A stretch of 64,000 bases of DNA from Mycobacterium pseudokansasii (GTDB taxonomy: Bacteria; Actinomycetota; Actinomycetes; Mycobacteriales; Mycobacteriaceae), in the NCBI RefSeq assembly GCF_900566075.1, contig NZ_UPHU01000001.1, positions 1,612,001 to 1,676,000 on the forward strand, in the 5' to 3' direction. Of this stretch, positions 48,301-64,000 are shown piece by piece. A program made the position numbers and the translations under genes. How positions within the stretch are numbered: position 1 is the first letter of the stretch; each line of letters begins with the position of its first letter. The notes under the pieces are model-generated. The model was given only the letters and a program-made list of their open reading frames with translations, was not told the origin of the DNA and ran no database searches.

Positions 48301-48666
48301 GGGGCTGAACGGTTTCGACTTCGCGCATCGAATCAAGGGAAGCGTGCCGGTGCAGGCAAGAGACCACCGTAAGCGTCGTTGCAACCAAATAAGCGCCGAT
48401 TCACATCAGCGCGACTACGCTCTCGCTGCCTAAGCGACGGCTAGTCTGTCAGACCGGGACCGCCCTCGACCCGGACCCTGGCATCAGCTAGAGGGATCAA
48501 CCGATGAGTTCGGTCGCGGGACTCGTCGGGACACCAACAGCGACTGGGATCGTCGTCCTGGCTAGTTCGCGTGACCAGGAGATCCGAGCAGAGGCATAGC
48601 GAACTGCGCACGGAGAAGCCTTGAGGGAATGCCGTAGGACCCGGGTTCGATTCCCGGCAGCTCCAC
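48301..48666 (+). ncRNA. ssrA: Transfer-messenger RNA
   Basis: The gene starts GGGGCTGAACGGTTTCGACT, the standard tmRNA 5' end, and closes with the T-arm (GGTTCGATTCC) and acceptor strand CAGCTCC. The tag reading frame at 48395-48433 encodes ADSHQRDYALAA and stop, the mycobacterial tag. It rescues stalled ribosomes together with SmpB. The length, about 366 nt, is normal. The 3' end is unusual: after CTCCAC the sequence continues TTTTG instead of CA, because an island is inserted here. CCA must therefore be added enzymatically. Confidence 0.97.
48659..48666. other. Left attachment core (attL) in the tmRNA 3' end
   Basis: AGCTCCAC forms the last bases of the tmRNA acceptor stem and recurs at 62062-62069. 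An attachment core inside a tmRNA 3' end is the classic target of tyrosine recombinases. The inner flank contains GATAACTTCATATC (48679-48692). Confidence 0.7.
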
Positions 48667-48695
48667 TTTTGAAGTACAGATAACTTCATATCGAG

Positions 48696-48766
48696 AACCT
48701 CCTTGCCGACGAGCAGAAGTGTCATACCCGTGGAGTACCACTGGATGCACAGTCGGCAAGGAGGTT
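48696..48766 (+). promoter_or_regulatory. Hairpin that masks the recombinase ribosome binding site
   Basis: AACCTCCTTGCCGAC (48696-48710) and GTCGGCAAGGAGGTT (48752-48766) are perfect 15-bp inverted arms around a 41-base loop. The right arm contains the full Shine-Dalgarno AAGGAGG (48758-48764), 7 bases before the recombinase ATG at 48772. In RNA the left arm CCTCCTT would pair with it and block translation. A T-rich run (TTTCTTC) follows, so it might also act as a weak terminator. Confidence 0.65.
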
Positions 48767-48771
48767 TCTTC

Positions 48772-50250
48772 ATGCGGATAGTCGTCGTCCAGAGAAGCGC
48801 CCATGCGGGCGAAACACTGCGTGCTCCCCATGGCGCGGCATCGCTCCCGTGGTCATCGGTTGTGGAAACGCTCGACCGACACGATGTTCCCGACGGACTG
48901 CCGTTCATCGTCGACGACGATGGCTCGCTGAACGGTTGCGACCGACTCAACACCTACCTGCTGACCGCGTGGCGTCAACGCGCCTATGACCTCGACAGCC
49001 TGCGGACCTTTCACACATACCACCTCGCCCGGCTGCTCCGGTTCGTTCGGGCGCGCCGCGGCGGGCAACTGGTGGACCTCACCGCCGCCACTACCGAGGA
49101 TCTGACCGCTTACCGCGATGCCCGCCAACAGGAAGTCCAGGACACCACGCTGGCCACCGAGTTCGGCTGCTTCTCCTCCTTCTTCTATTTCGCGACCCAG
49201 GTCGGCTGGATGGAGAAAGACCCGATCCCTCGCTGGGGCCGCAACAACCGCAACACCCTCATCTCCCGGACGTGGCGCGAGCGTCAAGCACGCTTCCTCA
49301 AGGCGGCCCAGACCAAGCACTTCCTCGAAGTCGGCCTCCGCGGTGACGGCTACGACAGGGAGGGTGCGCCCGGCTACCCCGAACGGGACTATGTGTACGG
49401 GTTGCTACTCGCAACCACAGGCCTACGACGTGAGGAGTGCGCATTTCTCCTCGACGTCGAGGTGCCGGTCCCAGAGACGATGGGCGCTGGGTCCCTCCAC
49501 GTCTTCGACCGGCTCGGCAAGAAGCAGGTGGTCCGATCCATCTACATCACCGCGCAGGTGGCCCACGCCGCCGACCTCTACCGCCAGAGTGAACGACATC
49601 GCATCGTGCAGTCGGCCCAACGCAGCCTCCGCGCCAAGGTCCGTGACGGCTCACTACTGGTGATCGACGATCTGTTCGAGCGGCGGGGAAAGCCCTACGT
49701 CGCTGTTGGATCCCAGCGCATTCCGCTGGTCCGGTTCACCAACAAGCATCGCGCCAAAGCCGTCCGGCTCCTCGACGACGGCACCATCGACCCACTCGCA
49801 TTGTTCGTGTCCCGCAGCGGACTCCCACCTGGACTCGAACGCTGGAACCAACTCTTCGCCGATGCACGTGAGCGCGTACGCCGCTGCGGCCACCGAGATC
49901 AACCGCCACGCCACGTTCACGTCACACCGCACACGATGCGACATTCCTACGCCGTGCGCATGCTCGCCGCGCTCATGAAAGAAGGACGGCAGCGCGCCGG
50001 AGATCCCTACCTGCTGCTGGCGAACCCGGTGCTGACCGTGAAGGAACTCCTCGGCCACGCCAGCGTCAAGACCACCATGCACTACCTCCACGCCGCTGAA
50101 ACATGGACCGAGAATGTCCCGACCGCCCTAGCAGCGACCGCAGCGGAACTCGTCGGCCACACCGATGACGACTACGGCCCCGACCCGGAGTCGATCGAGG
50201 ACGACTGGGATGAGCCCGAGGCCGATCCAACCGGAGTAGACATCCGATGA
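48772..50250 (+). CDS. Tyrosine recombinase 1 of the island trio (TnpA-like)
   Basis: A 492-residue site-specific recombinase. A SAM-like DNA-binding region (about 75-150) precedes the catalytic domain with the Arg of TTGLRREEC, a Lys near GKKQVVRSIY, the HTMRHSYAVRML box, LLGHASVKTT and the nucleophile Tyr in MHYLH. All catalytic residues are present. The ATG at 48772 is chosen for AAGGAGG 7 bases upstream; the frame is open further upstream. Its stop overlaps the next gene (ATGA). It should integrate and excise the island with the two partners. Confidence 0.88.
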   Translation: MRIVVVQRSAHAGETLRAPHGAASLPWSSVVETLDRHDVPDGLPFIVDDDGSLNGCDRLNTYLLTAWRQRAYDLDSLRTFHTYHLARLLRFVRARRGGQLVDLTAATTEDLTAYRDARQQEVQDTTLATEFGCFSSFFYFATQVGWMEKDPIPRWGRNNRNTLISRTWRERQARFLKAAQTKHFLEVGLRGDGYDREGAPGYPERDYVYGLLLATTGLRREECAFLLDVEVPVPETMGAGSLHVFDRLGKKQVVRSIYITAQVAHAADLYRQSERHRIVQSAQRSLRAKVRDGSLLVIDDLFERRGKPYVAVGSQRIPLVRFTNKHRAKAVRLLDDGTIDPLALFVSRSGLPPGLERWNQLFADARERVRRCGHRDQPPRHVHVTPHTMRHSYAVRMLAALMKEGRQRAGDPYLLLANPVLTVKELLGHASVKTTMHYLHAAETWTENVPTALAATAAELVGHTDDDYGPDPESIEDDWDEPEADPTGVDIR

Positions 50251-51941
50251 GGGGCTCCTACTCGACGCCAGATGGTCCCATTGAGTCTGTGCCGCCGGTT
50301 GTACAGAACGCTGACCAGTTCACCTTCGAATGGTCCATCTATGGGGACAAGAGGTCCAAGACCATCAAGCCTGCCTCGTTCGAAACGCCGGTTATCGCAA
50401 CCGAGTTAGCCGCGACTTGGGTCCAGGTGCTCAAGGAATTCGCCCGGTTTGAAGCCTCACTGACCTCCGGACTCCTGGACCTGCTGCGGTCGGTGGGAAC
50501 GTTGCCACTGACCGACGACCAGAAGAGCAGATTCGCCGTGCACGATCTGCGCCGGGCACATCTGGACCTTTGGGAACTCAATATGCTGGCTCGCCACCGA
50601 AAGGCGCAGTCAGACACCGCCTACCGCATGGTTGTCCATGTCTTCGCTCTCCTCCGACGGCACGAAGACGACCACCCTGGTGCGCTGCATACCGAGGTCA
50701 CCGATCGATTAGCGCGACAACCGCGCCTGTGGCACCACCGCAACGAGGGAATTCCGGCGTTAGGCGAGGAGGAGACCCGGGCGTGGCGCCGGTGGGCGTA
50801 CCAGAAGGTGAAAAGTGCTCTGGCATTGCCGGACCGGGGCATCAGCGACATCGACGTTCAGACCGCCACGCACGTGCTGCTGAGTCTCGCAACAGGCGAG
50901 CCACCAGAGGTACTTCGCGCCCTGACCGTTCACGACATCGAAGTCACTGCCGTCCATGCAGCGGGGGACAACGTGACTGGGTTGTCACCGATCGACAGAC
51001 TTGGCTACCTCGCCGAGAACGACCTCATCGAACTGCTCCGGGTGCGGTACACCAAGAACCGCGCACATGAGACCTACGACGAGGTGTACGCCCGCCGCGA
51101 CACAGCACCGTTCACCGCGTTTCGATGGGCGTTGATGCTCAACGCCGCTGCTCGCGCCGACTCCGGCAATCCGTTACTCATCCTCATGAAAGACGAACGA
51201 GACATCATCAAACAACCACCTTGGCGGAGTGATCCATACCTACTGTCTGCCATTGCCGCGCGGAACAGCCTTCCGCTATCGGGTCCGAACCAATGGGCAC
51301 GGCTGCGCAAGGTTGCCACCACCCGCGAAGTGCTCGCCGACCCCAAGTCCTACCTGGCGAACGGGCGCCGCCATTCCGCGAAGACCTTCTTCGGTCACTA
51401 CACCAACAGCACTGTTCTCCGCGGCGAAGCCGGCCGCATTCTCATCGACAGCGTCAACGACATGTTCGACAGCGCCATCGGCGGTCCCACCATCGTGACC
51501 CCGGACGCGGAACAGGCCATGCGAGCCGGAGTCGACGCACCCGGCATCGACCCGGGCACCGCCAGCGCCCTTGTGGCTGGCCAACTCGATGGACCGCACG
51601 CCGGGTGCCGCGACCCCCTCGACAGCCCCTACGAGAAGAAAGGCACCGTATGCACCAAGTCCATCACCGGCACCTGCTTCGCATGCCCCAACGCTCTCAT
51701 CACGCTGCACCACCTGCCAGCCGCCCTCGCGATCCAGGACATGGCACATCCCGACCGCGCCGCCGACCCAAGAACCTGGCAGACGCACTGGAAACCCATT
51801 TACGACACCATCACTGAGGTAGTGCTGCCCGCCTTTACCCCCGAGCAGGTCCAGCAAGCTCGCCAGCGGGCGAATCTGACACCCATCGACGCGGGCGTTT
51901 TCAACGACATGCGCGGCATTCAGGAAGACGCGGACTCATGA
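50247..51941 (+). CDS. Tyrosine recombinase 2 of the trio, with a degenerate active site
   Basis: A 564-residue integrase-like protein. The catalytic fold seems present (LLSLATGEPPEVLRALTVHDIEV and RRHSAKTFFGHYTN near the C-terminal third), but the usual first Arg of the GLR motif is replaced (GEP) and the first His of the HxxR box is not evident. A possible nucleophile Tyr remains in GHYTN. A C-terminal cysteine set (AGCRDPL, CTKSITGTCFACPNA) looks like a zinc-binding extension. It overlaps both neighbours by ATGA. It may serve a structural role in a hetero-complex. Confidence 0.75.
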   Translation: MRGSYSTPDGPIESVPPVVQNADQFTFEWSIYGDKRSKTIKPASFETPVIATELAATWVQVLKEFARFEASLTSGLLDLLRSVGTLPLTDDQKSRFAVHDLRRAHLDLWELNMLARHRKAQSDTAYRMVVHVFALLRRHEDDHPGALHTEVTDRLARQPRLWHHRNEGIPALGEEETRAWRRWAYQKVKSALALPDRGISDIDVQTATHVLLSLATGEPPEVLRALTVHDIEVTAVHAAGDNVTGLSPIDRLGYLAENDLIELLRVRYTKNRAHETYDEVYARRDTAPFTAFRWALMLNAAARADSGNPLLILMKDERDIIKQPPWRSDPYLLSAIAARNSLPLSGPNQWARLRKVATTREVLADPKSYLANGRRHSAKTFFGHYTNSTVLRGEAGRILIDSVNDMFDSAIGGPTIVTPDAEQAMRAGVDAPGIDPGTASALVAGQLDGPHAGCRDPLDSPYEKKGTVCTKSITGTCFACPNALITLHHLPAALAIQDMAHPDRAADPRTWQTHWKPIYDTITEVVLPAFTPEQVQQARQRANLTPIDAGVFNDMRGIQEDADS

Positions 51942-54025
51942 CCGCCGGAACCTTCCCGCGAAGCTCCGCCACGTCGTGGAGGAACCCCTTCGTTGCGGCG
52001 ATGCGCGTTTGGCCCCATCTTTCCGACAGTCCGCGTTATGGCGACGAACCGTGGGATCTCGCCCTTGTAGCCAACCGAGTCAACATGGGAGAGCGCTACA
52101 TTCACTTCGCCAGCGCTCCGGATAGGCACCGCACGACCTTCAAGAACGTTCTCATGACGGTCGCAGCCCCCGACCGCGAAGTCGTCGTAGAGGCGGGCGT
52201 CGTCCGCCGCGGCGATGGAACACCACCAGCAGGGTTATACGACTACTTTCGCAAGCTTGTCGTGATCGCCAAGTGGTCCGAGGACAACGGAATCGCCCGC
52301 TTCGCCGAATGGATGCAGGCCGACGCCGATCGTTTCCTCGATGACCTTCGCACCGGCCAGCATCGGGCGGGCGGCGTTGGACTCGGCGCGACGAGTATCC
52401 GTGGTTACGTCACCGCCTTACGATTGCTCCGAGAGTGCCAGGCAGTCCTGCCTGATGCCCTTTCCTTCTTCCCCTGGGCCGGCCGCAGCGCCGCCAGCAT
52501 CAGCGGTGAAGTCACGCACACCGAGAACACCACGCCGCCCCTCCCGTGGGTAACCTGGGCACCGCTCATCACTGCATCATGGATCATCGTCGACCGATTC
52601 GGCGATGACATCATCGCCGCCGCCGAGATTCGTGCTGCGCTTCCGAAGGAGCCAAGGGGGCCAGCTGGAGCAAACGCCTACAACGCCCTGCTCCACTGGA
52701 CCGAACAGGGTGGACCACTGCCGCTTCACACCGGATTCGGCCGCACCAAACACCAACGAGGAGAGCCGAATACGACACTGCTGGAACGACTTCTCGGCAT
52801 CAACGCCAATGTCCTCAACCGGGCGAGCCACCAATACATGCCGGACGCGGCGGCACTCATCGCAACCGCTGCGGCTGACCCGCAGCGGGCGACTTTCGGA
52901 GGACTGCACGCGCCGACTGCCGTCGTCTCTCACCCGGACGGGACAAGCAGCACGTGGGTGGAGGAATTGGGCCTCGGCGAAACCGAATATCTCGAAAGTG
53001 TGCTCCGCGCAGCGTGCTACGTCCTGATCGCCAGCCTTACCGGCATGCGCGACAGCGAGATCCAGGAACTGACACGCGACAGCCACACCACCAAGGACGG
53101 TCTCTCCGCCCTCAAGAGTATCCAGCACAAGGGCAACGGCAATCCTGGCGGCGAGCGCCGAACATGGTGGGCACCCCGACCCGTAATCCGCACCGTCGAG
53201 GTGCTGGGCAACCTGGCCAGACACGACACACACCTGTTCGCCCGCAGCAGTCGCAACGCCGGTTCCTACATTCCCAGCCGCGACATCGCCAGGCTCATCG
53301 CATTCGTCAACGATGACCCCGCACAACGGCCCGGGCGTGGACGCGGACTCGGACTGGAACACATCGCGATCCCGAAAGGCCAAGCCATCAACGCGACCTC
53401 CCTCCGACGTGCGTTCAGCGTCTTCGCCACCACCCGCCCAGGAGCCGAACTCGGACTGGGAATCCAACTGGGACACAGCGCTTGGCGAATGACCACCGGG
53501 TACATGAGCGACGGACAGCAACGCGCCGTGCGCCTCATGGACGACGAACGTAAACGCGTCCTGCACCGCGACGCTGCCGCGCTGCTGCAGGACGACAGCC
53601 CTGTGGCCGGGCCGGCAGCTCACCATGTCACCGGGTTCCGCGCACAGATCATCGCTAACCCTGACCGCGCCGATCGGCTCACCGCGATGCTCGCGGAGCG
53701 ACTTCATCTGGGGCTCACCAACGACTGCATGTGGAACCCGGCAACCAGTAGCTGCGGCGGCGACCGCCCAAAGCTCGGCGACCACGTATGCGTCGGTGTC
53801 GACTGCACCAACGCCTTACTGCGGCCAGCGCACATGGGCGTGATCGCCGGTGCCATCGACCGCATCGACACATATCTCGATGAACAGCGCGGCCATCCGG
53901 CCCTCATCGAGCAGATGCGCCGAGACCGCGCAAACCTCGCCCGAATCCGCCGCGAACTTATGGCCGCCGACGATCCGGACGACCTCTACGACGACGATCT
54001 GGACCAGGAGAACGGACATGCCTAG
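51938..54025 (+). CDS. Tyrosine recombinase 3 of the trio (TnpB-like)
   Basis: A 695-residue recombinase. Catalytic motifs are LTGMRDSEIQEL (Arg I), SLRRAFSVFATTRPGAELGLGIQLGHSAWRMTTGYMSD split across the HxxR, LGH and Tyr boxes (here the first His is replaced by Ser or Leu, the second Arg, LGH and Tyr are kept). A C-terminal cysteine-containing part (CMWNPATSSCGG, CVGVDCTN) follows. It is the largest of the trio, similar in arrangement to Tn554 TnpB. Its stop lies inside the next gene's start region. Confidence 0.8.
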   Translation: MTAGTFPRSSATSWRNPFVAAMRVWPHLSDSPRYGDEPWDLALVANRVNMGERYIHFASAPDRHRTTFKNVLMTVAAPDREVVVEAGVVRRGDGTPPAGLYDYFRKLVVIAKWSEDNGIARFAEWMQADADRFLDDLRTGQHRAGGVGLGATSIRGYVTALRLLRECQAVLPDALSFFPWAGRSAASISGEVTHTENTTPPLPWVTWAPLITASWIIVDRFGDDIIAAAEIRAALPKEPRGPAGANAYNALLHWTEQGGPLPLHTGFGRTKHQRGEPNTTLLERLLGINANVLNRASHQYMPDAAALIATAAADPQRATFGGLHAPTAVVSHPDGTSSTWVEELGLGETEYLESVLRAACYVLIASLTGMRDSEIQELTRDSHTTKDGLSALKSIQHKGNGNPGGERRTWWAPRPVIRTVEVLGNLARHDTHLFARSSRNAGSYIPSRDIARLIAFVNDDPAQRPGRGRGLGLEHIAIPKGQAINATSLRRAFSVFATTRPGAELGLGIQLGHSAWRMTTGYMSDGQQRAVRLMDDERKRVLHRDAAALLQDDSPVAGPAAHHVTGFRAQIIANPDRADRLTAMLAERLHLGLTNDCMWNPATSSCGGDRPKLGDHVCVGVDCTNALLRPAHMGVIAGAIDRIDTYLDEQRGHPALIEQMRRDRANLARIRRELMAADDPDDLYDDDLDQENGHA

Positions 54026-54443
54026 CCCGACCCGCAAGCGCGTCAGCGATGCCGTGATGCAGGCCATCGCCGACGCCATCACCACGATTGAGAACAGCGC
54101 CGACATGCCGCGCACGAAACGGCAGATCGAAGCGATCACCGGTAGAAGCCACGACGCCGTCGCCCGCGCCTTCGTTCAAGACCGAACCGAGAACAGCCGC
54201 TACCGGCTCAACAGCCGTTTCGAACGGCTCACCGCGAACCTGACGAGGGGCGACAGTCTCAACGACGCAGCAGTCCGCAACGACCGGCAGATCATCGCCG
54301 AACTACGCCAGAAGAACCGCGACCTTCACGACCAACTCGACCGTTTCGCCACCGCGCTGTTCGCACGGCACCTCGATTGCGACACCGAGCGGCCCGAAAT
54401 CGAACTCGTCACGCGTATTCGGAGAGGGCAGCGCCGGGAGTGA
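54018..54443 (+). CDS. Small coiled-coil accessory protein of the recombinase operon (TnpC/DUF6262-like)
   Basis: A 141-residue basic, helical protein starting MPSPTRKRVSDAV at 54018, overlapping the third recombinase's end by 8 bp. A helix-turn-helix-like N-terminal half (KRQIEAITGRSHDAVARAF) is followed by a coiled coil (IIAELRQKNRDLHDQLDRF). Proteins of this size and layout follow recombinase trios and the Tn554 TnpAB genes, where TnpC helps set orientation of insertion. I cannot verify the family without a search. Confidence 0.65.
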   Translation: MPSPTRKRVSDAVMQAIADAITTIENSADMPRTKRQIEAITGRSHDAVARAFVQDRTENSRYRLNSRFERLTANLTRGDSLNDAAVRNDRQIIAELRQKNRDLHDQLDRFATALFARHLDCDTERPEIELVTRIRRGQRRE

Positions 54444-54684
54444 CTGGCCGCACCCGCAAGGGCGTCGGAGTCTTCATTTTTCGAATACACACCGCATTAC
54501 TGGATTCACGAGCCATATTTCCCACACCGTGCCGGATTCGGCGCGTATCGGAACCCCGCGGGTACCCGGTGGGGTACGGCAAAATAACCACTTGCGACAC
54601 ACCGGCCACAACTGCATCGCCGCACATGTCGGTGCCGGACCATAGGGTGACGAGTGCATAGGACCAGAGCTGAGGGAGGCCCCG

Positions 54685-55431
54685 ATGGCGGATCGTTCGG
54701 CGATCGAGTGGACCGAGGCCACCTGGAACCCCGTCACCGGCTGTGATCGCGTCTCCGCTGGCTGCGACCACTGCTACGCGATGACGCTGGCCAAGCGGCT
54801 CAAGGCGATGGGCTCGGCGAAGTACCAGGTCGATGGTGACCCCCGTACCTCCGGCCCCGGCTTCGGTGTGACGGTGCACCTGCAGGCGCTCGGCGAACCG
54901 TTGAAGTGGCGAACGCCTCGGGTCGTGTTCGTGAACTCGATGTCCGACCTGTTCCACGCCCGGGTGCCACTCGACTTCATCCGCGACGTGTTCGACGTCT
55001 GCCGGGACACCCCGCAGCACACCTACCAGGTGCTAACCAAGCGCAGCCTTCGCCTACGCCGATTCGCCGACAAGCTCGACTGGCCGGACAACCTCTGGAT
55101 GGGCGTGTCCGTCGAGAACGCCGACGTCCTCAGCCGCGTCGACCACCTCCGTGAGGTCCAAGCCGCGGTTAGGTTCCTGTCCTGCGAGCCGCTCCTCGGC
55201 CCGCTCGACGGCATCGACCTCTCCGGCATCGGCTGGGTGATCGCGGGCGGGGAGTCCGGACCCCGGTACCGGCCGATGGAGCTGTCCTGGGCGCGCGGGA
55301 TCCGCGACGCCTGCAACGACGAGGGTGTGCCGTTCTTCTTCAAGCAGTGGGGCGGCCGCACACCGAAGGCGTTCGGCCGCGAGCTCGACGGTCAGCTGTG
55401 GGACGAGATGCCCACTGCCGCAACCGGTTAG
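54685..55431 (+). CDS. Three-Cys-motif protein (DUF5131, phage Gp37/Gp68 family)
   Basis: A 248-residue protein starting MADRSAIEWTEATWNPVTGC, the family signature. The motif is C20-x6-C27-x2-C30 (GCDRVSAGCDHCYA), consistent with an iron-sulfur cluster of a radical SAM-like enzyme; FVNSMSDLFH, VLTKRS and AGGESGPRYRPM are the other conserved segments. The reaction is unknown. It usually lies next to TcmP, here encoded on the opposite strand with 3' ends overlapping by 4 bp. Widespread in phages and mobile elements. Confidence 0.88.
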   Translation: MADRSAIEWTEATWNPVTGCDRVSAGCDHCYAMTLAKRLKAMGSAKYQVDGDPRTSGPGFGVTVHLQALGEPLKWRTPRVVFVNSMSDLFHARVPLDFIRDVFDVCRDTPQHTYQVLTKRSLRLRRFADKLDWPDNLWMGVSVENADVLSRVDHLREVQAAVRFLSCEPLLGPLDGIDLSGIGWVIAGGESGPRYRPMELSWARGIRDACNDEGVPFFFKQWGGRTPKAFGRELDGQLWDEMPTAATG

Positions 55432-56420
55432 GCGTGGTCGTCGTTCGGCACGTACCGCATCGGTTCGACGGGTGGTGCCAGCGGTTCACGGACGGGTGCC
55501 TTGGTGGTCAGCTCGACGAGTTCGGCTGCCCCGAACAGGCCTTCGTCTCTGTCCTTCGCGACGCGACGTTCGACTTTCTTGGTCGTGCGCATCTTCTCAA
55601 GCGCTACACCATGCTTAGCGAACACCGACTCCATGATCTTGTTGCCGGTCGCGTTCGCTGACGCGAAGATCACGGTGTAGATCGGATGCCCGGTCGTGTT
55701 CGTGAACTCGAGTGGAATCGTCGTCGCGTAGCCCAGCTCCTTCTCCAGGCGCCAGCGCATGAGGTTCACCAGTTCGTTGCGGAACTGCTCGGCGTTCAGC
55801 ACCTGATCTCGCCGTGCTAGCCACAGTTCACGCCACTGGGGCGTGCCGAACATGCGGTCCACCCGCTGTGCGTACTCCGGGTCGGGTTCGTCGCCGGTGA
55901 ACTGGAGGCCTCGGGGCAGCAGCGCGTGGCCGAAATAGAGCCACAACTCGACCTTGAAACCCCGCTTGTTCTGCCGCCAGTTCGCTAGGTATCGGATTGT
56001 GTCCCAGGTGATTTCGGCGCTGAACTGATCGACCATGGCGAACACCGCCGCGCCGCGCCGCCAGCTGTAGTCGTAGGTGTTGAGGTGCTTCGGGATCTCG
56101 ACGTTGCAATCGCCCGGGAGGACGACAAGATCACGGTTCGGGTGCGCGGCCTCCAGCTTCTTCCGCAGGGTCTCAGCGGTGCGCTGCTGGAGCTCGCAGA
56201 GCACGACGCGATCGAACGCCGGGTCCGTGGACAGCGCCCGGTGGCCGGAACCGAGGATGACGTTGCCGGTGCCGCGCTCGAAGTTGTCGGGGGCGCCGGC
56301 GAACAAGTCGAGGTACAGCGTGTACTTCGCCGTCTTCGATGCCCGGGTGAACGCGTTCAGGTAGTCCGAGAGTGCTTCCAGCTTGATCCGGGACCAGGGT
56401 CCCCAGCCTCGACCGCTCAC
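55428..56420 (-). CDS. tcmP: Three-Cys-motif partner protein TcmP
   Basis: A 330-residue protein of the TcmP family, named for its link with the three-Cys gene. Visible segments are WSRIKLEALSDYLNAF, YLDLFAGAPDN (a methyltransferase-like motif), PGDCNVEIP and FAMVDQFSAEITWDTI. The start GTG 56420 is chosen for the perfect AGGAGG 7 bases upstream; the longer frame has no such signal. A nucleotide- or nucleic-acid-modifying role is often guessed; none is proven that I know. It converges on the DUF5131 gene and overlaps it by 4 bp. Confidence 0.85.
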   Translation of the reverse strand: MSGRGWGPWSRIKLEALSDYLNAFTRASKTAKYTLYLDLFAGAPDNFERGTGNVILGSGHRALSTDPAFDRVVLCELQQRTAETLRKKLEAAHPNRDLVVLPGDCNVEIPKHLNTYDYSWRRGAAVFAMVDQFSAEITWDTIRYLANWRQNKRGFKVELWLYFGHALLPRGLQFTGDEPDPEYAQRVDRMFGTPQWRELWLARRDQVLNAEQFRNELVNLMRWRLEKELGYATTIPLEFTNTTGHPIYTVIFASANATGNKIMESVFAKHGVALEKMRTTKKVERRVAKDRDEGLFGAAELVELTTKAPVREPLAPPVEPMRYVPNDDHA

Positions 56421-56647
56421 GGCTCCGCCTCCTGATCCCACATCTTTGTGGGCCTCGTCCGAAGCGTAGGCAAGGTTCGCTGCCCGCCGTGTGCAGGCAC
56501 GCCGCGCGGGCGTCAATTTCCCACCGGCCGGGACTCAGCCGGGCGCTGTTCATCCAGCTGGCCCGGTAGGTCTTGGAGACGGCGGTTCTGCCGCCACGAT
56601 CTGTCGGTCCCCTCCAGCCGAGAGTTCCGTAGGCGACGTCGAGGCCG

Positions 56648-59600
56648 TCATCGATCCCGAGACTGGTTACGGGGACCGGATCGTGGCTTCCATTCCCAAC
56701 CGGGCAGCGTGACCAGCCGCTTCCGGCGCTCTTCGCTTAGTTGTCCCTTAGAGTAGCTTTGCCGCTGCGTTGCGACCCATGAGCCGAGCCTGAATCCGCT
56801 TGCACTGGCGTAGCTCTGGGGCGGGCAGGTGTGGCCGTTCTCGTCGGCGTACTGCTGAAGCTGCGCGTAGCCCCCCTCCCACCAGGCGTCCCGGACCGAC
56901 ACAGCCCAACCCGGTAGCGTCGCGAGCCGCTCCTTGCGATCCGCATGGAGCGAGTCCCAACCGGACCGTTGCACAGCTACCCACTGGCCCAGCTTGAATC
57001 CGTGGAACATGTAGTCGGCGGGCACTAGCGCGGTGCCGTTCTCGTCGACGTAGGCGGTGAGGTGCTCGAAGCCCTCCTCCCACTGCGTGACCTTGATGTT
57101 CAGCGTCCACCCGGGAAGCTGCTCCAGGCGGCGCCGACGGTCGTTGTCGAGCGTGGCCCAGTTCTGCCGCTGTGTGTTGACCCATGTCCCGAGTTTGAAG
57201 CCGTCCCGGATGTAGTTGCTCGGCGGCTGTGCGGAGCCGTGTTCTTTCGTGTACTCCGAGAGGTGGTGGAACCCGTCCTCCCAGAACGCAGTTCGGCTGT
57301 CCAACGTCCACCCGGGGAGTTGTTCGAGTCGCCGCCGGCGATCGTCGCGCATCGACGCCCAGGTGGATTTCTGATTCGCCACCCACGCCCCGAGCTTGGT
57401 GCCGTCGGGAGAGACGTACTGCTGGGGAACGCGCGCGTCGCCGTGTTCGGCCACGTACTCCTCAAGCCGGCGGAACCAGTCCTCCCACCAGTCACCCCGC
57501 GCATCCAGCGTCCACCCCGGAAGCAGTGCGAGCCGCTGCCTCCGGTCTTCGCTGAGCTTGTCCCAGATGCGCCGCTGGACGCTGACCCACTTTCCCAACC
57601 GGTACCCATCGTCGGCGACATACGACTGCAGAACCTGTGCGCTCCCCGTGGATTCCACGCACTCGACGAGGTGGCGATAGCCCGTGTCCCACTTGTCGTC
57701 ACGAATATTGAGCGTCCAACCCGGCAGGGCCTCGAGGCGTTGCCGTCGCTCTTCGGTGAGCTGGTCCCAGGTGCGTCGCTGGCGACGGATCCACGACTCC
57801 ACGTCGATGCCATCGACCAGCAGACCGCGGGGAGGGTTCGCGTGGCCGTTCTCCGCCGCGTAGCGAGCGAGCGCGGTGAGCGACGTCTCCCACAGCGCCG
57901 CGCGGGCGTCGAAGGTCCAGCCCGGGAGTTCCTCCAGAAGTTGCTTGCGATCAGCGGGCAGGGTCGTCCACTTCGTGCGCTGCTTCCCGACCCACTTTCC
58001 GAGCCGGTACCCGTCGTCGCAGACGTGGTCGTCGCGAATACCCGCGGTTCCGTGCACGGCGACGTACTCCCGGAGGTGCCGGAACCCCTCCTCCCACAGA
58101 TCCGCCTTCGGATCCCAGCTCCATCCGGGCAGAGCGTCCAGAAGATCCTGCCGTTTTTCGCTCAGGCGGCCCTTCGATCGCTGGAGCCGCTGCGTCGTGA
58201 CCCACGTGCCGAGCCGATCACCGTCATCAGTCACATACGCCTGCAGCACCAGCGCCGTCCCATGCTCGTCCACGTAGCGCTGCAGCAGTCCGAACCAGAA
58301 CTCCCACGGCCCGCTGGTCTGCTCCACCAGCCTGGTGTCGAAGGCGTCAACGAACGCAGCTCCGACATGGACGGGCACGTCGAGGTGGATCTTGTCCGGC
58401 AGCTTCGGCACACCACCACCGCGGCGTCCCATCTCCCGCCGCAACGTGTCGATCTGCTCCGCCAAGTCGTCGTCGTGCGCCCGCAGCGCCTTGATCACAT
58501 CCCAGACCGGCTCGAACACGGAATCGTCCAGTGCGGCTTCGGGATCCGCCTCGGTGTCGATGAAGACGGGGATGACGATGGTGCCAACCGTCTTGTCGTC
58601 CGCCTTGCGGATCGCCCGACCCACCGCCTGGACGATGTCCACCTCGGAACGCCGCGGGTCGATGAACGCGACGCCGTCGAGGGTGGGGACGTCCACCCCT
58701 TCAGCGAGGCACCGCGCGTTGGCGAGCAGCCCACGTTCGCCGTCGTCAAGGCTCCGCAGACGTTGCAGCAGCACGTGGCGTTCGCCAGCCGTCATCGCCC
58801 CGGACGCGTATCGGGACCACAGTCCGCCGGCAGGGCGTTGCCGAGCCGGCATCCAGCCAATCACGTCGGGCATCTCGGTCGCGAACCCCTGCGCTCTCGC
58901 GACCCGGGAGTGGAAGCTGATGACGCGCCGCAGGTCGTACTTGCGCATCGCCTTCGCCAAGCCGATCTGCCCGGCCAGGGAGCGAGCGTCGGTGATCTCC
59001 TCACCATCGCGGGTGACCAGGGTGCCATTGTCCGCGTAGGCCCGGTAGGTGGCGTCGTCGACCCCGACGATCGCCACCTGGTAGTCGGTGAGCAGGTTGC
59101 GGCGGATGGCCTCGCTGAATCCCAGCCGGTGGAACAGCGGGCCGAACTTGGTCTCGTCGTCCATCGAGGCGACTTCGAGATCTTCCTCGCCCGCGGCCTT
59201 GATGACCCGGCCGGTGAAGTACCGCGGCGTGGCGGTCATGAACAGCCGCCGGTGTGCTCTGATCCGGTCGCCGTCGAGCACAGCCGAGAAGTCCGAGGAC
59301 TGCGGCCCCGCGCATCGGTGCGCCTCGTCGGCGATGATGAGGTCGAACGCTGGCACCCTGCCCAGGCTGAACGCGTCGGCGATCCGCGGCGATGACTGGT
59401 AGGTGCAGAACACGACGCGGGGACCGGACCGCTTGCGGAGGAACGCGGCGATCTCGGCGGGGTCGGTGGTGACCGGTAGGCCCAGTTCGCTGACATGTTC
59501 CACGGGGATGTCCTCATTGCGTGACACCGTCTCGTCCGAGCACACCGGCAGCGCCTCGACTCCCCGTCGGCCCTGCGTCTGCCACACCCGCATCGTCTGC

Positions 59601-60301
59601 TTGAGCAGCGACAGCGACGGGACCAGTACCAGGGTGCGTTGCGCGTCGAGCTCTTGGGCGATGAACTGCGCGGTGAGTGTCTTGCCGGTGCCGCACGCCA
59701 TGATCAGCTGCCCGCGGCCGCCGGTGTCGAAGCCGGTAACCACGGCGTCGATCGCCTCGCACTGATAGCCATGGGGCTCAGCGGGTTTCGGGGGCGGTGA
59801 GGGCCGAAGGCGCCCCGGGTTGGCCGGCCAGTTGACATCGGCGGTGAGCAGGTCGCTGAGTCCGACGATGCCGACCGGCTTCTCCTGGGCGTCGATTGTC
59901 CTGCGGCCGTTCGGGCTGAGCTTGTCGGTGGTCGCAACCAATAACCGGTAGGAGAACACGGCCCGGGAGGACTCCGACAGGAACGTATCCACGTCGGCCT
60001 TGGTGACGGCGTACTGCGGGTCGTACGCCTTCGCCTGGATCGCCCAGAGCCGCCCTGCTTGGTCTTCGGCGACCAGGTCGATACCGGCGTCCGCGCTCCA
60101 CCGGCCGGGCCAGTCGTCCCACAGCCAGACCTGTCGAAGGGCAGTTCGGTACTGCGGGTCGTTCATCAAGTACCAGCGGCAGATGTGCTCGAACTGCCTG
60201 CCCCGTACGCGCGGGTCCGCGGCAAGGGTGACGACGAGGTCAGCGAAGGCCGGCACGGTGAGGGAAGTTACTCCGAGCGAGCGACATCTTCGCAGCACCA
60301 T
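56648..60301 (-). CDS. Nuclease-helicase with eight helicase-associated (HA) repeats
   Basis: A 1217-residue protein. Residues about 30-110 resemble a Mrr/PD-(D/E)XK nuclease: AGIDLVAED with Asp75, and IQAK with Gln89 and Lys91. A superfamily 2 helicase core follows: Walker A ACGTGKT (202-208), DEAH (325-328), TAT (356-358) and QAVGRAIRK. From about residue 660 the tail has eight copies of an approximately 68-residue unit ending LPGW, the helicase-associated (HA) domain. This resembles type I/III-like restriction or defence enzymes. It is divergent from the AlbA_2 gene with 183 bp between starts. Substrate and partners are unknown. Confidence 0.85.
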   Translation of the reverse strand: MVLRRCRSLGVTSLTVPAFADLVVTLAADPRVRGRQFEHICRWYLMNDPQYRTALRQVWLWDDWPGRWSADAGIDLVAEDQAGRLWAIQAKAYDPQYAVTKADVDTFLSESSRAVFSYRLLVATTDKLSPNGRRTIDAQEKPVGIVGLSDLLTADVNWPANPGRLRPSPPPKPAEPHGYQCEAIDAVVTGFDTGGRGQLIMACGTGKTLTAQFIAQELDAQRTLVLVPSLSLLKQTMRVWQTQGRRGVEALPVCSDETVSRNEDIPVEHVSELGLPVTTDPAEIAAFLRKRSGPRVVFCTYQSSPRIADAFSLGRVPAFDLIIADEAHRCAGPQSSDFSAVLDGDRIRAHRRLFMTATPRYFTGRVIKAAGEEDLEVASMDDETKFGPLFHRLGFSEAIRRNLLTDYQVAIVGVDDATYRAYADNGTLVTRDGEEITDARSLAGQIGLAKAMRKYDLRRVISFHSRVARAQGFATEMPDVIGWMPARQRPAGGLWSRYASGAMTAGERHVLLQRLRSLDDGERGLLANARCLAEGVDVPTLDGVAFIDPRRSEVDIVQAVGRAIRKADDKTVGTIVIPVFIDTEADPEAALDDSVFEPVWDVIKALRAHDDDLAEQIDTLRREMGRRGGGVPKLPDKIHLDVPVHVGAAFVDAFDTRLVEQTSGPWEFWFGLLQRYVDEHGTALVLQAYVTDDGDRLGTWVTTQRLQRSKGRLSEKRQDLLDALPGWSWDPKADLWEEGFRHLREYVAVHGTAGIRDDHVCDDGYRLGKWVGKQRTKWTTLPADRKQLLEELPGWTFDARAALWETSLTALARYAAENGHANPPRGLLVDGIDVESWIRRQRRTWDQLTEERRQRLEALPGWTLNIRDDKWDTGYRHLVECVESTGSAQVLQSYVADDGYRLGKWVSVQRRIWDKLSEDRRQRLALLPGWTLDARGDWWEDWFRRLEEYVAEHGDARVPQQYVSPDGTKLGAWVANQKSTWASMRDDRRRRLEQLPGWTLDSRTAFWEDGFHHLSEYTKEHGSAQPPSNYIRDGFKLGTWVNTQRQNWATLDNDRRRRLEQLPGWTLNIKVTQWEEGFEHLTAYVDENGTALVPADYMFHGFKLGQWVAVQRSGWDSLHADRKERLATLPGWAVSVRDAWWEGGYAQLQQYADENGHTCPPQSYASASGFRLGSWVATQRQSYSKGQLSEERRKRLVTLPGWEWKPRSGPRNQSRDR

Positions 60302-60484
60302 CCCGGAAGCCTCAATCCGCCGGTAGGACGCATCACAGCCACCGCGTCAGCTCCGCCTAATGCGGCGCGCTGGTCCCGCGTAGGAAGCGGTGCCAGACCC
60401 AATCCCGCAACGTCCGCCAAACGACTCCAGACTCGCCCTCAGCTCCGACGAAGAATGTGGTCGACGAGTGCCTACCCTTGTCCG

Positions 60485-61732
60485 GTGAGTTTCACCGCCC
60501 TGCACCGTAGTCTCGGTCTCGCTCCGAGCGCGCTGACTGATGAGATCCTCGATGCCGCAATCACAGCGGGCGTCGTCGAGACGGACGACCTCGACTGGAA
60601 GTCGGAGCTCCCGCCCGCGAAGGGCCTCCCACAGACCGACTTCCCCAAGGACATTGCGGCCATGGCGAACAGTGGCGGCGGCGTGATCGCGTACGGCGTC
60701 GAAGAGGACCAGAAGGCGGCGACCGGCCGCAAAGACACCGGGATTCTGAACGAAGTCCACGAGCGCGCCCTCCACAGCGCTGCGATCACGGCGATCACAC
60801 CGCCGGTGTTCGGACTCGAGATCCACCAGCTGGGCACCAATCCCCGCGCGGTGGCGGTCATCGTCCCCGCCAGTGTGGACGGCCCGCACCTGATCTACCG
60901 AGGCGAGTATTTCGGCGCTCCGGTCCGGAACAACGCCGACACAGTGTGGATGAAGGAGCGGCAGATCGAAGCGACGTACCGGGCACGCTTCGATGAGCAG
61001 CGCCGGTCCAATGAGTTGATCGACTCGCTGTACGTCGAGGCCACAGCGGGCCGTGACACCGCGAACCGCGCGTGGCTGATTGCCGTCGCGCATCCGCGCA
61101 TACCGGGCGCGCTCGTTCGCCCCACGCGTGAAGAGGCGCAAGCGATATTCAAGCAGGCGGAGAAGATCACGCTCACGTACTCAAACCGCAACGGTATACA
61201 TCCTCTCGAGAACATCGACCGCCTCAACCCGCGGCCGGGCCTGCGGCGGTGGGTCGCACCCAACAATGCCACCGGCGAAAGTTCGCGGTGGCGGGAGGCG
61301 TGGGCGAGTGTGCACCACGATGGATCGGTCACCCTGGCGGCGGCAGTCGGCGGGCACAGGAAGAGCAGTGGTGAGAACTTTGAGGGCTGGGAGGTCGAGG
61401 CCCGGGGGATCGAAGCCGCCATCGCGGACTTCACCGCCCTCACCCGTGCAACAGCAGCAGCACTGCACCACGGGGAGTACGACGTATGCGTAGGCGTCGC
61501 ATGGACAGGCGAGCGGCCGCTCGCGGTACTGACCATCGACGGGCACGGATTCATTTACGACGGGGCCTCGACGCCGCTATCGAGCTACACGCCAGTGCGG
61601 TCGACGATCTACACGGCTGCCTCTGATGCGGAATTCCATCAACAGGTGCACGACCTCGCGCAGGACTGCGTCAACCAGGGCGGGATCACCCATCTGCACG
61701 TGATCACGGATCCAGATCCGACGGAGGCGTAG
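60485..61732 (+). CDS. AlbA_2/Schlafen-type DNA-binding domain protein
   Basis: A 415-residue protein starting at GTG 60485 (VSFTALHRSLGL). Residues about 35-165 are an AlbA_2 (Schlafen) domain: DDLDWKSELPP, FPKDIAAMANSGGGVIAYGVEED and YYGAPVRNN-like segments (here YFGAPVRNN), known from putative transcriptional regulators and nucleic-acid binders. The C-terminal half has no family I recognise. It is divergent from the nuclease-helicase and is the last cargo gene before the island end. Such domains recur in phage defence genes. The frame is open further upstream, but family likeness begins here. Confidence 0.78.
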   Translation: MSFTALHRSLGLAPSALTDEILDAAITAGVVETDDLDWKSELPPAKGLPQTDFPKDIAAMANSGGGVIAYGVEEDQKAATGRKDTGILNEVHERALHSAAITAITPPVFGLEIHQLGTNPRAVAVIVPASVDGPHLIYRGEYFGAPVRNNADTVWMKERQIEATYRARFDEQRRSNELIDSLYVEATAGRDTANRAWLIAVAHPRIPGALVRPTREEAQAIFKQAEKITLTYSNRNGIHPLENIDRLNPRPGLRRWVAPNNATGESSRWREAWASVHHDGSVTLAAAVGGHRKSSGENFEGWEVEARGIEAAIADFTALTRATAAALHHGEYDVCVGVAWTGERPLAVLTIDGHGFIYDGASTPLSSYTPVRSTIYTAASDAEFHQQVHDLAQDCVNQGGITHLHVITDPDPTEA

Positions 61733-62061
61733 GGCCTGCTTTTCCGGCGTCGGCCATCACGCAAAGTCGAGTGAACAACCCGCCGAGGAGGCCGCAACGA
61801 CGGCAGCCTAACTAACACCCACTGGACTCAACTCGGACCCACTTGCGCGGTCTGGCGCGGTACGCAAACGTGTCGGAGGCGTGTGTGTGCAAGACCGCGT
61901 GGGAGACGCGCTCGCGGAGTGGAGCGCGATCGGCGGAGTCGCGGTGCCCGAGTGACCTACCGAGGCCGGAAAGTGGCTCGACCTATGGAAGACAATCCTG
62001 GTCTTCAACTCGGATTGAACGGCGTACGGATGACACGGAAGACTCCCTGAATATGACAGTT
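61733..62061. other. Right end of the island
   Basis: About 330 bases after the AlbA_2 gene with no gene I can support. It ends in CTGAATATGACAGTTAGCTC, where the inner arm ATATGACAGTTA (62051-62062) is nearly the inverted copy of TAACTTCATAT found just inside the left end (48681-48691). Confidence 0.55.
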
Positions 62062-62069
62062 AGCTCCAC
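62062..62069. other. Right attachment core (attR)
   Basis: AGCTCCAC repeats the last bases of the tmRNA acceptor strand at 48659-48666. Next come CA, which together with the core gives CTCCACCA, the normal tmRNA 3' end including encoded CCA. Confidence 0.7.
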
Positions 62070-62076
62070 CAGTTGA

Positions 62077-62100
62077 TGGGCCGGGTGGGCGGCCCATTTT
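62077..62100 (+). terminator. Rho-independent terminator, probably the original tmRNA terminator
   Basis: TGGGCCG (62077-62083) and CGGCCCA (62090-62096) form a perfect 7-bp stem with a 6-base loop, followed by TTTT. It lies 7 bases past the CCA of the attR sequence, in tmRNA orientation. Before the island inserted, it would have followed the tmRNA end directly. It can also serve the degenerate mazF transcript from the other side. Confidence 0.82.
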
Positions 62101-62128
62101 CGGGCTACAGCCATCACAGAGACCCCCG

Positions 62129-62467
62129 TCACAGACCGAGGTATCGCGCCACGGCGTGTTCCACTCGGCCATTTCGTCGGCCATTTCGTCACGGTCCAGA
62201 TAGTCGACCGGATCGCCATGCACATAGACGATGCACAGAGACGATGTCGATCGTCCGGATCTGGTCCACCAGGAACCGTGTCTTTGCACCCATGATTTCC
62301 AGCTCTGGGCGGAAGACCGCAGGCTGGGCCTGTGTCGACGTCGGTACTACAGTTACGACACGCCACGGCATCGAGCCGGGACTGATGACCACGGCGTAGC
62401 GCCGCCCGCGTTGCTCGTGCCCGCGCTTCGCATGACCGAAGTCGACCCGGTAGACCGCTCCGCGCAT
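62129..62467 (-). pseudogene. MazF-type toxin, frameshifted
   Basis: From 62467 the frame reads [21 protein letters not shown] and MGAKTRFLVDQIRTID, a MazF/PemK ribonuclease core. Then a 13-bp imperfect tandem copy (62220-62232 and 62233-62245) shifts the frame. The continuation YVHGDPVDYLDRDEMA lies one frame over, contains a 12-bp tandem copy (62167-62190, DEMADEMA), and a further single-base loss restores the end VEHAVARYLGL, stopping at 62129-62131. The toxin is thus cut short at 62189 in the original frame. A MazF-like gene lies near ssrA in M. tuberculosis too. Confidence 0.78.
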
Positions 62468-62667
62468 CACCACGCGTCCGGTTCGGTGGAGACGTCCTCG
62501 TCTCGAAGCCGCTCAGCGTCGGTGCGAGCCTGCTTGATCCACACTTCCCGTTCCAGCAGCTGCAGTGCCCGCCGGATGACGTCGCTCTTGCGTTCGCCGC
62601 TGCGCATTGCGGCCTTGATGATCTCTTCATCTTTTACAGTAGGTCGGAAGCCGATGGTCGCCGTCAT
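62467..62667 (-). CDS. MazE-type ribbon-helix-helix antitoxin
   Basis: A 66-residue protein starting [15 protein letters not shown] at 62667. The N-terminal part is a ribbon-helix-helix DNA-binding fold ([20 protein letters not shown]), and the acidic tail ([14 protein letters not shown]) would wrap the toxin. Its stop overlaps the toxin start (TGATG). It appears intact while the toxin is broken. It presumably still represses its own promoter. Confidence 0.8.
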
Positions 62668-62956
62668 GACGACGAAGATATGCCGACGTTGCACAACCGT
62701 CGAGCAATTGTTCAACGCGCAATCGGCACCCCGACGGCTGTGTTCGTCATCTCCCTGACCCGTTTGAAGCGAACAGCCCGGCCATCGCTACCAGACATCC
62801 CACCGCTTCGGGGGTTCTTCCTAGGTGACGTCCACCTGGCAGCCGGTTTCCGGCAAACCGCTACGTGATGACCCGGCCTCGTCATAAGCTCCGGCTACTC
62901 GGAGATCGGTATCGGCTGGGCAACACGACGGGTTGCCCGAAGGGTGGAGCGGCACG

Positions 62957-64000
62957 GTGTCGTATGTTTTTGCGTTTCCCGAGCTGATGTCCGGCGCGGC
63001 CACAGATGTGGCTTCGATTGGTTCGATGGTCGCGACCGCAAACCAGGGCATGGCCACTGCCACCACTGCGGTAGTGGCCGCAGCCGAGGATGAGGTGTCA
63101 GAGGCGATCGCGGCCTTCTTCTCCGCCCACGGCCGGGACTATTTGGCCCTCAGCGCGCAGGCGGCGGCTTTCCATGAGCGGTTCGTGCAGGCATTGACCG
63201 GCGCTGCCGGGGCGTATGCCACCGCCGAAGCGGCCGGCGCTGCGCCTCTTGCGACCTTTGAGCAGGCGGTGCTCGGCATCCAGCTGGAAATCCAGCAGAT
63301 CCCCACGACGATTGCCGCCGGATTCAGCTCCGGGCTCGCATCTTTGACTTCAATCCCGGGTAATCCACTCCTGATGCTGCTTGCCAGCGACATCCCGCCG
63401 CTGTCGTGGGTGTTGGGCAACTCCCCGCCGCCACTGTTGAATTTGCTGCTGGGGCAAACGGTGCAGTACACCACCTATCAGGGGATGAGCGTCGTGCAGA
63501 TCACGCCGGCCGCTCCAACCGGCGAATACGTGGTTGCCCTGCACGGTGGCGCGTACATTCTCCCGGCCTCGTTGTTCCACTGGATCAACTACTCGGTGAC
63601 GGCCTACCAGACCGGCGCGACCTTCGAAGTGCCGATTTACCCGTTGCTACAGCAAGGTGGTACCGCTGCAACGGTCGTTCCCCAAACAGCCGGGTTCATC
63701 TCGTCGCAGATCGCGCAACACGGAGCCCAGAATGTCAGCGTGGTCGGCGACTCCGCGGGCGGCAACCTCGCACTGGGGGCCGTCCAATACTTGGTCAGCC
63801 AATCCAAACCGGTACCTTCGTCGATGGTGTTGCTGTCTCCGTGGCTGGATGTGGGGACTGGGGGACTCGGCGCGGCGTGGGCAGGCAATCTACCTGCGAA
63901 CAACTATCTGGTGAGCCCGCTGTATGGGTCACTTGACGGTCTTCCGCCGACGTATGTCTACTCCGGCTCGCTGGATCCACTTGCACAACAAGCCGCCGTC
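62957..64000 (+). CDS. lipY: PE-domain triacylglycerol lipase LipY (partial, runs off the window)
   Basis: From GTG 62957, 348 codons are open to the right edge. The PE domain (SYVFAFPELMSGAATDVASIG ..., given by its start) covers about 95 residues and directs ESX-5 secretion. A linker leads to an alpha/beta hydrolase domain with HGGAYI (oxyanion hole) and the nucleophile Ser in VVGDSAGGNLALG. It closely follows M. tuberculosis LipY (Rv3097c), which hydrolyses stored triacylglycerol, the counterpart of Tgs1 encoded in the same window. The linker between PE and hydrolase is shorter than in M. tuberculosis. The rest of the triad lies beyond the window. Confidence 0.93.
   Translation, partial: MSYVFAFPELMSGAATDVASIGSMVATANQGMATATTAVVAAAEDEVSEAIAAFFSAHGRDYLALSAQAAAFHERFVQALTGAAGAYATAEAAGAAPLATFEQAVLGIQLEIQQIPTTIAAGFSSGLASLTSIPGNPLLMLLASDIPPLSWVLGNSPPPLLNLLLGQTVQYTTYQGMSVVQITPAAPTGEYVVALHGGAYILPASLFHWINYSVTAYQTGATFEVPIYPLLQQGGTAATVVPQTAGFISSQIAQHGAQNVSVVGDSAGGNLALGAVQYLVSQSKPVPSSMVLLSPWLDVGTGGLGAAWAGNLPANNYLVSPLYGSLDGLPPTYVYSGSLDPLAQQAAV

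Follow-up and report, generated by a model that had tools for sequence, protein, structure and literature searches.

A three-recombinase mobile element inserted exactly at the 3' end of the tmRNA gene of Mycobacterium pseudokansasii

How does the transfer-messenger RNA (tmRNA), the ribosome-rescue RNA encoded by ssrA, stay correctly ended once its terminator has been displaced, and how do the recombinase genes now lying behind it stay quiet, when the one is transcribed towards the other? This question is posed by a locus of Mycobacterium pseudokansasii (contig NZ_UPHU01000001.1, positions 1,612,001 to 1,676,000 of the forward strand), a stretch of 64,000 nucleotides that is referred to here as the window and to which all coordinates belong. 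In this window, a 13.4-kb mobile element with three recombinase genes is inserted exactly at the 3' end of ssrA. Positions 48667-62069 are best explained as a site-specific integrative element that has the last eight ssrA bases as its attachment site and would be moved by its own four proteins, with a hairpin near its left end as a gate; we put the probability of this reading at roughly 0.86. Genomes and loci used for comparison are given by their handles (G and L, respectively).

Insertion point and displaced terminator

The last eight bases of ssrA, AGCTCCAC, recur at the far end of the element (48659-48666 and 62062-62069), and the right copy is followed by CA (62070-62071), GTTGA, a perfect stem (TGGGCCG-GGTGGG-CGGCCCA, 62077-62096) and TTTT (62097-62100). 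Both observations were already made in a preliminary description of this DNA and are confirmed from the coordinates. The same description held that the island splits the tmRNA gene from its terminator; this displacement stands, with the qualification that the gene body itself is not split. ssrA is uninterrupted up to the discriminator base and the first C, and the insertion has moved away the final CA of the encoded CCA plus the downstream DNA, and nothing else of the gene. The encoded CCA is missing in many element-free relatives as well (e.g. CACTG, CACAA, CACCG). The length between the element ends is 13,403 bp, and the left-end motif CAGATAACTTCATAT forms an approximate inverted repeat of the right end. 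A comparison by eye of the two ends of the element itself (ATATGACAGTTAGCTCCAC and ATATGAAGTTATCTGTAC) gave agreement in 15 of 19 columns, with a single gap. The 8-mer AGCTCCAC occurs five times in the window against 1.87 expected and is weak evidence when taken alone. The boundary is raised above chance by the right-end motif, by the position of the left end behind ssrA and by the uninterrupted junction of ssrA and stem in close relatives.

These relatives come from a search with the right flank (62062-63062) against 396 genus genomes, of which 49 match, eight of them (including the window's own) at E < 1e-180. Without the island, G057 reads CTCCAC-CGCTTGA-TGGGCCGG, so that ssrA runs into the same stem-loop after 7 bases, and G219 and G015 read CTCCAC-TTTTGA-TGGGCC with the stem-loop 6 bases past ssrA. 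Since ssrA lies directly before the TGGGCC stem-loop in all three genomes, the terminator was displaced in the window. The TTTTGA of G219 and G015 resembles the window's left end, as a scar of excision might. Relatives with an empty site, and related elements that share both ends, support the integration behind ssrA and the terminator displacement that were proposed in the preliminary description. The uninterrupted allele predicted there was recovered as an ssrA-stem junction, but not as the exact string CTCCACCAGTTGATGGGCC; a search with this string plus two extra 5' bases matched 2 of 231 loci, both of which are copies of the window's own place, and the nearest allele, CTCCACCGCTTGATGGGCC in G057, has two mismatches. 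At ssrA of G074 (L104) and G091 (L107) lies another, small insertion (2.2 and 1.6 kb, respectively) that has a longer ssrA repeat and, behind the second copy of this repeat, the TGGGCC flank.

A wider survey agrees with a terminator that belongs to the right flank. Stems of at least 7 bp within 30 nt were present at 76 of 91 element-free tmRNA ends and at 13 of 15 element right ends, compared to 2 of 14 element left ends. A stem plus at least three T in the next eight bases was found in 55 of the 91 element-free flanks, compared to 7.5% in base-shuffled controls, and a stem with T in 10 of the 15 right flanks. For each flank 70 bases were read, and the stem had to start within 30 nt and to enclose a loop of at most 20, which makes the scan blind to the long-loop hairpin of the element. 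The 91 ends count G023 twice and include tmRNA-type ends at sites with other insertions; L095, L151 and L158, whose ends the search pattern missed, are absent from the scan, the 14 left flanks do not include that of the window, and the tandem junction of G124 and the right end of G065 lie outside the 15.

As a separate observation, CGATAGCAC stands behind CAC in G063 (L154) and resembles the left ends of G093 and G088, a possible trace of excision. Its sister G313 (L213) has different bases at this place but CAC natively, leaving a 6-base match as the possible excision scar.

Table 1. Features of the ssrA locus and the inserted element (window coordinates)
Feature	Position	Strand	Basis
ssrA (tmRNA), target gene, body intact, tag ADSHQRDYALAA	48301..48668	+	ARAGORN 48301-48666; Rfam RF00023 48301-48668, 139.1 bits
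Left copy of the 8-bp direct repeat AGCTCCAC, the terminal bases of ssrA	48659..48666	+	read from sequence
Element left end: 10 variable bases TTTTGAAGTA, then conserved motif CAGATAACTTCATAT	48667..48691	+	identical motif right behind ssrA in relatives
Hairpin, stem of ~17 pairs, long loop; 3' arm holds the Shine-Dalgarno AAGGAGG (48758-48764) of recombinase 1	48694..48768	+	folding
Recombinase 1 (IntA/GinA-like), complete R-HxxR-H-Y set, 492 aa	48772..50250	+	PF00589; motif kept in 107/107 aligned rows
Recombinase 2 (Tfp/GinC-like) with tyrosine-recombinase fold and Pro in place of the first catalytic Arg, 564 aa	50247..51941	+	fold by structural alignment
Recombinase 3 (large, IntB/TnpB-like), 695 aa	51938..54025	+	AF2 model, Foldseek, motifs
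Small fourth protein (Srap/GinD/TnpC position)	54018..54443	+	85-92% identical in related elements
DUF5131 protein, PADLOC candidate PDC-M41B (PDC-M30B nearly as good)	54685..55431	+	family and PADLOC scan
TcmP-like partner, PADLOC candidate PDC-M41A	55428..56516	-	family and PADLOC scan
Mrr-type nuclease, helicase and eight helicase-associated (HA) stretches, restriction-like	56648..60301	-	family and PADLOC scan
SLFN/AlbA_2 protein (conserved part; open reading frame opens at 60059)	60488..61732	+	family scan; comparison
Element right end ATGACAGTTAGCTCCAC, including right repeat copy 62062-62069	62053..62069	+	motif search in genus genomes
Displaced ssrA terminator (7-bp stem, TTTT)	62077..62100	+	sequence, relatives, stem scan

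Related elements and their recombinase operon

Relatives of recombinase 1 (E <=1e-30) occur in 22 of the 396 genomes, 16 of which (including the window's) have a best match of at least 79% identity. The sites of 15 of these 16 were surveyed (the window and 14 further regions, leaving out G165), and the element left end lies directly behind ssrA in 14 of the 15, i.e. the window and 13 others; the contig of the remaining one, G204 (L170), begins four bases ahead of the left end. Further left ends at ssrA were found in G336, in the decayed G077, and in M. helveticum, Skermania sp. ID1734 and Mycobacterium sp. GA-0227b. Of the 396 genomes, 17 contain the right-end motif ATGACAGTTAGCTCCAC, for which a reversed control gave no match, and in 12 of the 17 (the window and 11 others) it shares a locus with a left end at ssrA. 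The right end of G124 lies between its two elements, and that of G395 is on another contig than ssrA. In G124 (M. lutetiense, L089), ssrA is followed by two tandem elements, with a single repeat shared between them as the right one of the first element and the left one of the second. Lengths between the ends range from 2,379 to 18,138 bp in 12 relatives within the genus. The full-length recombinases of the mycobacterial relatives are 79-92% identical, and the recombinase block is conserved with different cargo.

Movement is seen in an 11,652-bp element common to G386 and G020 with two mismatches. When the flanks of these genomes were compared by blastn (661 and 874 bases upstream, 7,588 and 7,275 downstream), the single match, 368 bp at 94%, ended at the element and was ssrA itself, and nothing downstream matched. 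The same element is found in G175 (L098), broken by inserted repeats, and as a deleted copy in G394; the DNA inserted in G175 disrupts recombinases 1 and 3 and includes inverted copies of 1,018 and 287 bp. The left bases CGATAGA are identical in all four hosts and the bases past the right end differ, and therefore both boundaries are fixed and the element was recently transferred between species. Outside the family, the Blastococcus-like G616 of the same order has a quartet of genes with 45-56% identity (48-56% for recombinases 1-3) that begins about 110 bases behind tmRNA, with 6,305 bp between the ends. Its repeat ACCTCCACCA equals its own tmRNA end, and its right end CTGACAGTTACCTCCACCA is followed by an inverted repeat; the element end has thus tracked the target sequence. 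On the strength of these sequence comparisons, the boundaries of the element, its target, its movement between species and the exchange of its cargo are established.

The three tyrosine recombinases and the small protein form an operon in the direction of ssrA, in one row (48772-54443) of overlapping frames, and all recombinase frames of the window are open. The preliminary description did not assign this quartet to a known class of elements. Support from fold or motifs was obtained for all three recombinases, two of which lack a Pfam or NCBIfam match and have database relatives that, where named, are mostly called hypothetical protein. The first Arg of recombinase 2 is Pro in 30 of 31 aligned rows. 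This protein has no Pfam or NCBIfam match at E 0.001, and Foldseek returned no recombinase among the 50 matches listed; its tyrosine-recombinase fold was revealed by VIA-align over a longer Foldseek list. For recombinase 3, the best Foldseek matches of the AF2 model are Cre/Tre (E from 0.011, probability up to 0.99, low TM-scores, none at E <=0.001), and PF00589 is weakly matched in 10 of 30 homologues. Profiles of recombinase 2 and of recombinase 3 retrieved no recombinase from the PDB sequences, and the small fourth protein has no family match. A distant relative of recombinase 2 (28%) is present on the second contig of the window's genome (L203, G000:C2:44301-44822). A Streptomyces plasmid (L233, 3723-9562) holds a distant quartet with the same four-gene layout and overlapping genes, in which recombinase 2 is about 26% identical.

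Beyond the operon, the window element contains defence-like cargo (Table 1), of which the SLFN/AlbA_2 protein has copies with 89-94% identity in the G066 and G147 elements. On the right, the element is adjoined by a MazF/PemK-like toxin gene and a preceding small open reading frame (62192-62715, minus strand) that belong to the host flank and are 88% identical in G074 and G219.

Left-end hairpin and competing explanations

Between ssrA and recombinase 1, only 27 bases from the repeat, the element holds a hairpin that was overlooked in the preliminary description; ssrA is for this reason probably not left without any downstream structure. The hairpin folds with -41.3 kcal/mol (z -5.65, with none of 200 shuffles equally good), and the Shine-Dalgarno (SD) sequence AAGGAGG in its 3' arm lies 7 nt upstream of the recombinase 1 ATG. 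In 21 of 21 folded left ends, including that of G616, the SD core has an unpaired probability of 0.000-0.002, which rises to 0.21-0.80 upon removal of the upstream arm; this set contains several near-identical copies, and the left ends of GA-0227b and G281 are outside it. Among 16 distinct left ends, 97.0% of the hairpin cells pair, with 8 of 271 cells unpaired. Neither a promoter nor an ssrA-strand terminator emerged from a consensus scan of the ssrA-element junction, in which loops were limited to 3-8.

These features suggest how the element could move and remain quiet. Together with the small fourth protein, the three tyrosine recombinases, of which one has a degenerate active site, would recombine the joined element ends with the tmRNA 3' end, with an exchange inside or at the edge of AGCTCCAC that keeps the tmRNA body and places 13.4 kb between ssrA and its terminator. 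Excision would yield a circle whose joined ends read TTAGCTCCAC-TTTTGAAGTACAG and an emptied site reading GCAGCTCCAC-CAGTTGATGGGCC. Transcription from the ssrA promoter presumably continues into the recombinase operon. In transcripts coming from ssrA, the hairpin would then hide the ribosome-binding site of recombinase 1 and act as a gate against its translation from read-through, so that little recombinase is translated as long as the element lies downstream of a gene with strong transcription; the hairpin may also end or protect the tmRNA transcript and so replace the lost ssrA terminator. A parallel is the fold-back protection of the IS10 and IS50 transposase genes. Read-through of this kind has a precedent in Streptococcus pyogenes, in which a prophage between ssrA terminators receives ssrA read-through (PMC9951164), and transcription entering from outside towards ginA is a further precedent, described for a GInt (PMC5385486).

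Several points weigh against this explanation. Six genomes of the genus carry only distant recombinase 1 relatives (32-35%), which fall outside the site survey. In G065 (L205), a right end and a piece of recombinase 3 lie far from ssrA with no intact element. In G280 (L208) the right end is 52.7 kb downstream of ssrA, and in G281 (L206) about 17 kb downstream, both on the same strand, and in the region examined G281 has no left end directly behind an ssrA end; in these two genomes, several islands have perhaps accreted at one tmRNA gene. With regard to the hairpin, the window's SD is just 21% unpaired even without the upstream arm, covariation is not above the control (42 of 500 shuffles reach the score, and one cell is changed on both sides), and the left ends are so closely related that conservation of the hairpin is by itself weak. 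Excision and transcription into the operon are predictions from the sequence.

An ordinary tDNA-type genomic island or prophage would depend on one phage-like integrase acting within the tmRNA gene, the 3' part of which would be supplied anew by the island. This would fit a site that is a favoured island target (PMC4383910) and the predicted integration site, with a 24-bp core, of cluster K1 mycobacteriophages (PMC3203893); the small insertions with a longer ssrA repeat in G074 and G091 would also suit it. In the window, however, no more than 8 bp are repeated, the tmRNA gene is neither disrupted nor rebuilt, and the three recombinase genes form a conserved block with the fourth gene. Furthermore, seven element proteins have no match to a structural family in a PHROGs scan, and recombinase 2 has no match in 50,697 phage records, which leaves an island or prophage of this type very unlikely. 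Even less credible is an immobile relic with a common position due to vertical inheritance. Decayed or truncated relatives do exist (G088, G336, G077, G147, G394, G133), but near-identical elements occur in genomes with non-aligning flanks, close relatives of the window's host have empty sites, and the window's recombinase frames are open.

The left hairpin might be a DNA element, either a binding site or a folded single-strand recombinase substrate, instead of an RNA gate or terminator. Its start just 27 bases from the repeat would suit such a role, and SEs have been proposed to move via single-strand or nicked intermediates (PMC10214605). Yet it is the 3' arm that provides recombinase 1 with its ribosome-binding site, G616 hides its SD with a different sequence, and one-sided changes that preserve pairing give G-U-type or equivalent pairs in ssrA-sense RNA, for which shuffles are nearly as good. 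We consider the DNA element unlikely, while giving it more weight than the island or the relic. A broader form of the integrative-element reading is offered tentatively and goes beyond what we would defend with confidence: an actinobacterial class of three-recombinase elements may long have been specialised on tmRNA, displacing the ssrA terminator so that read-through feeds the operon, with the left hairpin serving both as replacement terminator and as a gate that senses where the transcript started.

Relation to known element classes

The relatives described here form a coherent actinobacterial branch of three-recombinase elements specialised on tmRNA, insertion at tmRNA itself being ordinary in principle. 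Titles and abstract openings of the papers listed in searches on tmRNA islands, Tn554-like elements, recombinase trios, mycobacterial elements and SE/GInt elements gave no description of this element, nor did the sections consulted of papers on Mycolicibacterium mobilomes (PMC8190616) and M. marinum genomes (PMC6089878) hold anything bearing on it. The terms tmRNA and Mycobacter are absent from the main texts of the SE and GInt papers (PMC10214605; PMC5385486), as are Actino from the former and Actinobacter from the latter, so that the bacterial group in question is one that these main texts do not mention. For studies of how elements with three recombinases and a helper move, the branch is useful in that its ends are precisely defined, its target is fixed and its sites occur naturally in intact, tandem, truncated and empty form.

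Other classes share single traits with the element. Dehalococcoides ssrA islands likewise have an integration module beside ssrA, tandem islands and variable cargo, but employ a serine recombinase (CcrB-like), a 20-bp repeat and insertion in the T-loop (PMC3146451). Islander-type tDNA islands insert inside the RNA gene and restore its 3' part, whereas only the terminal 8 bases are shared here. RIT elements also have three adjacent tyrosine recombinases, but the archetype has proteins of 315-410 aa and 34-bp terminal inverted repeats, compared to 492, 564 and 695 aa and a fourth gene in the window, and the Tn554 family (tnpABC) has no counterpart of the degenerate recombinase 2 (both as summarised in PMC10214605).

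A closer match is found in the GInts (ginABCD), which, as described in parts of PMC5385486, have an operon of three tyrosine recombinases and a small protein, one recombinase without the first Arg, insertion at gene ends, outside transcription towards ginA, and variable cargo including restriction genes behind the conserved recombinase operon. They differ in that the degenerate GinC is third in the operon instead of second, that the repeats are imperfect and 10-17 nt long instead of perfect and 8 bp, and that the targets named are an ABC-transporter gene, ssb and a ribonucleotide-reductase gene instead of tmRNA. Recombination of GInts is described as requiring all four genes.

The SEs (intA-tfp-intB-srap), known from Gammaproteobacteria, have the same order of an ordinary, a degenerate and a large tyrosine recombinase followed by a small protein, together with tightly coupled overlapping frames, few target sites and a comparable size (13.8 kb for SE-6283), according to the passages on these features in PMC10214605; the comparison is one of gene layout and published descriptions. 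Their terminal inverted repeats are imperfect and 13-19 bp long, which the approximate inverted repeat of the window element may resemble, and their movement is described as copy-out with no empty donor site. SEs move a 6-bp spacer, host bases ending up beside the intA end (PMC10214605), whereas here the intA-side bases travel with the element (CGATAGA in four hosts), those specific to the host occur at the right end and the target is tmRNA. The variable bases behind the left repeat were considered as an SE-like swapped spacer and rejected as a general rule, since one and the same element has identical bases there in four hosts. Taken together, SEs and GInts are the nearest published kinds, from which the window element differs in being actinobacterial, in being specific to tmRNA and in lacking the SE spacer swap.

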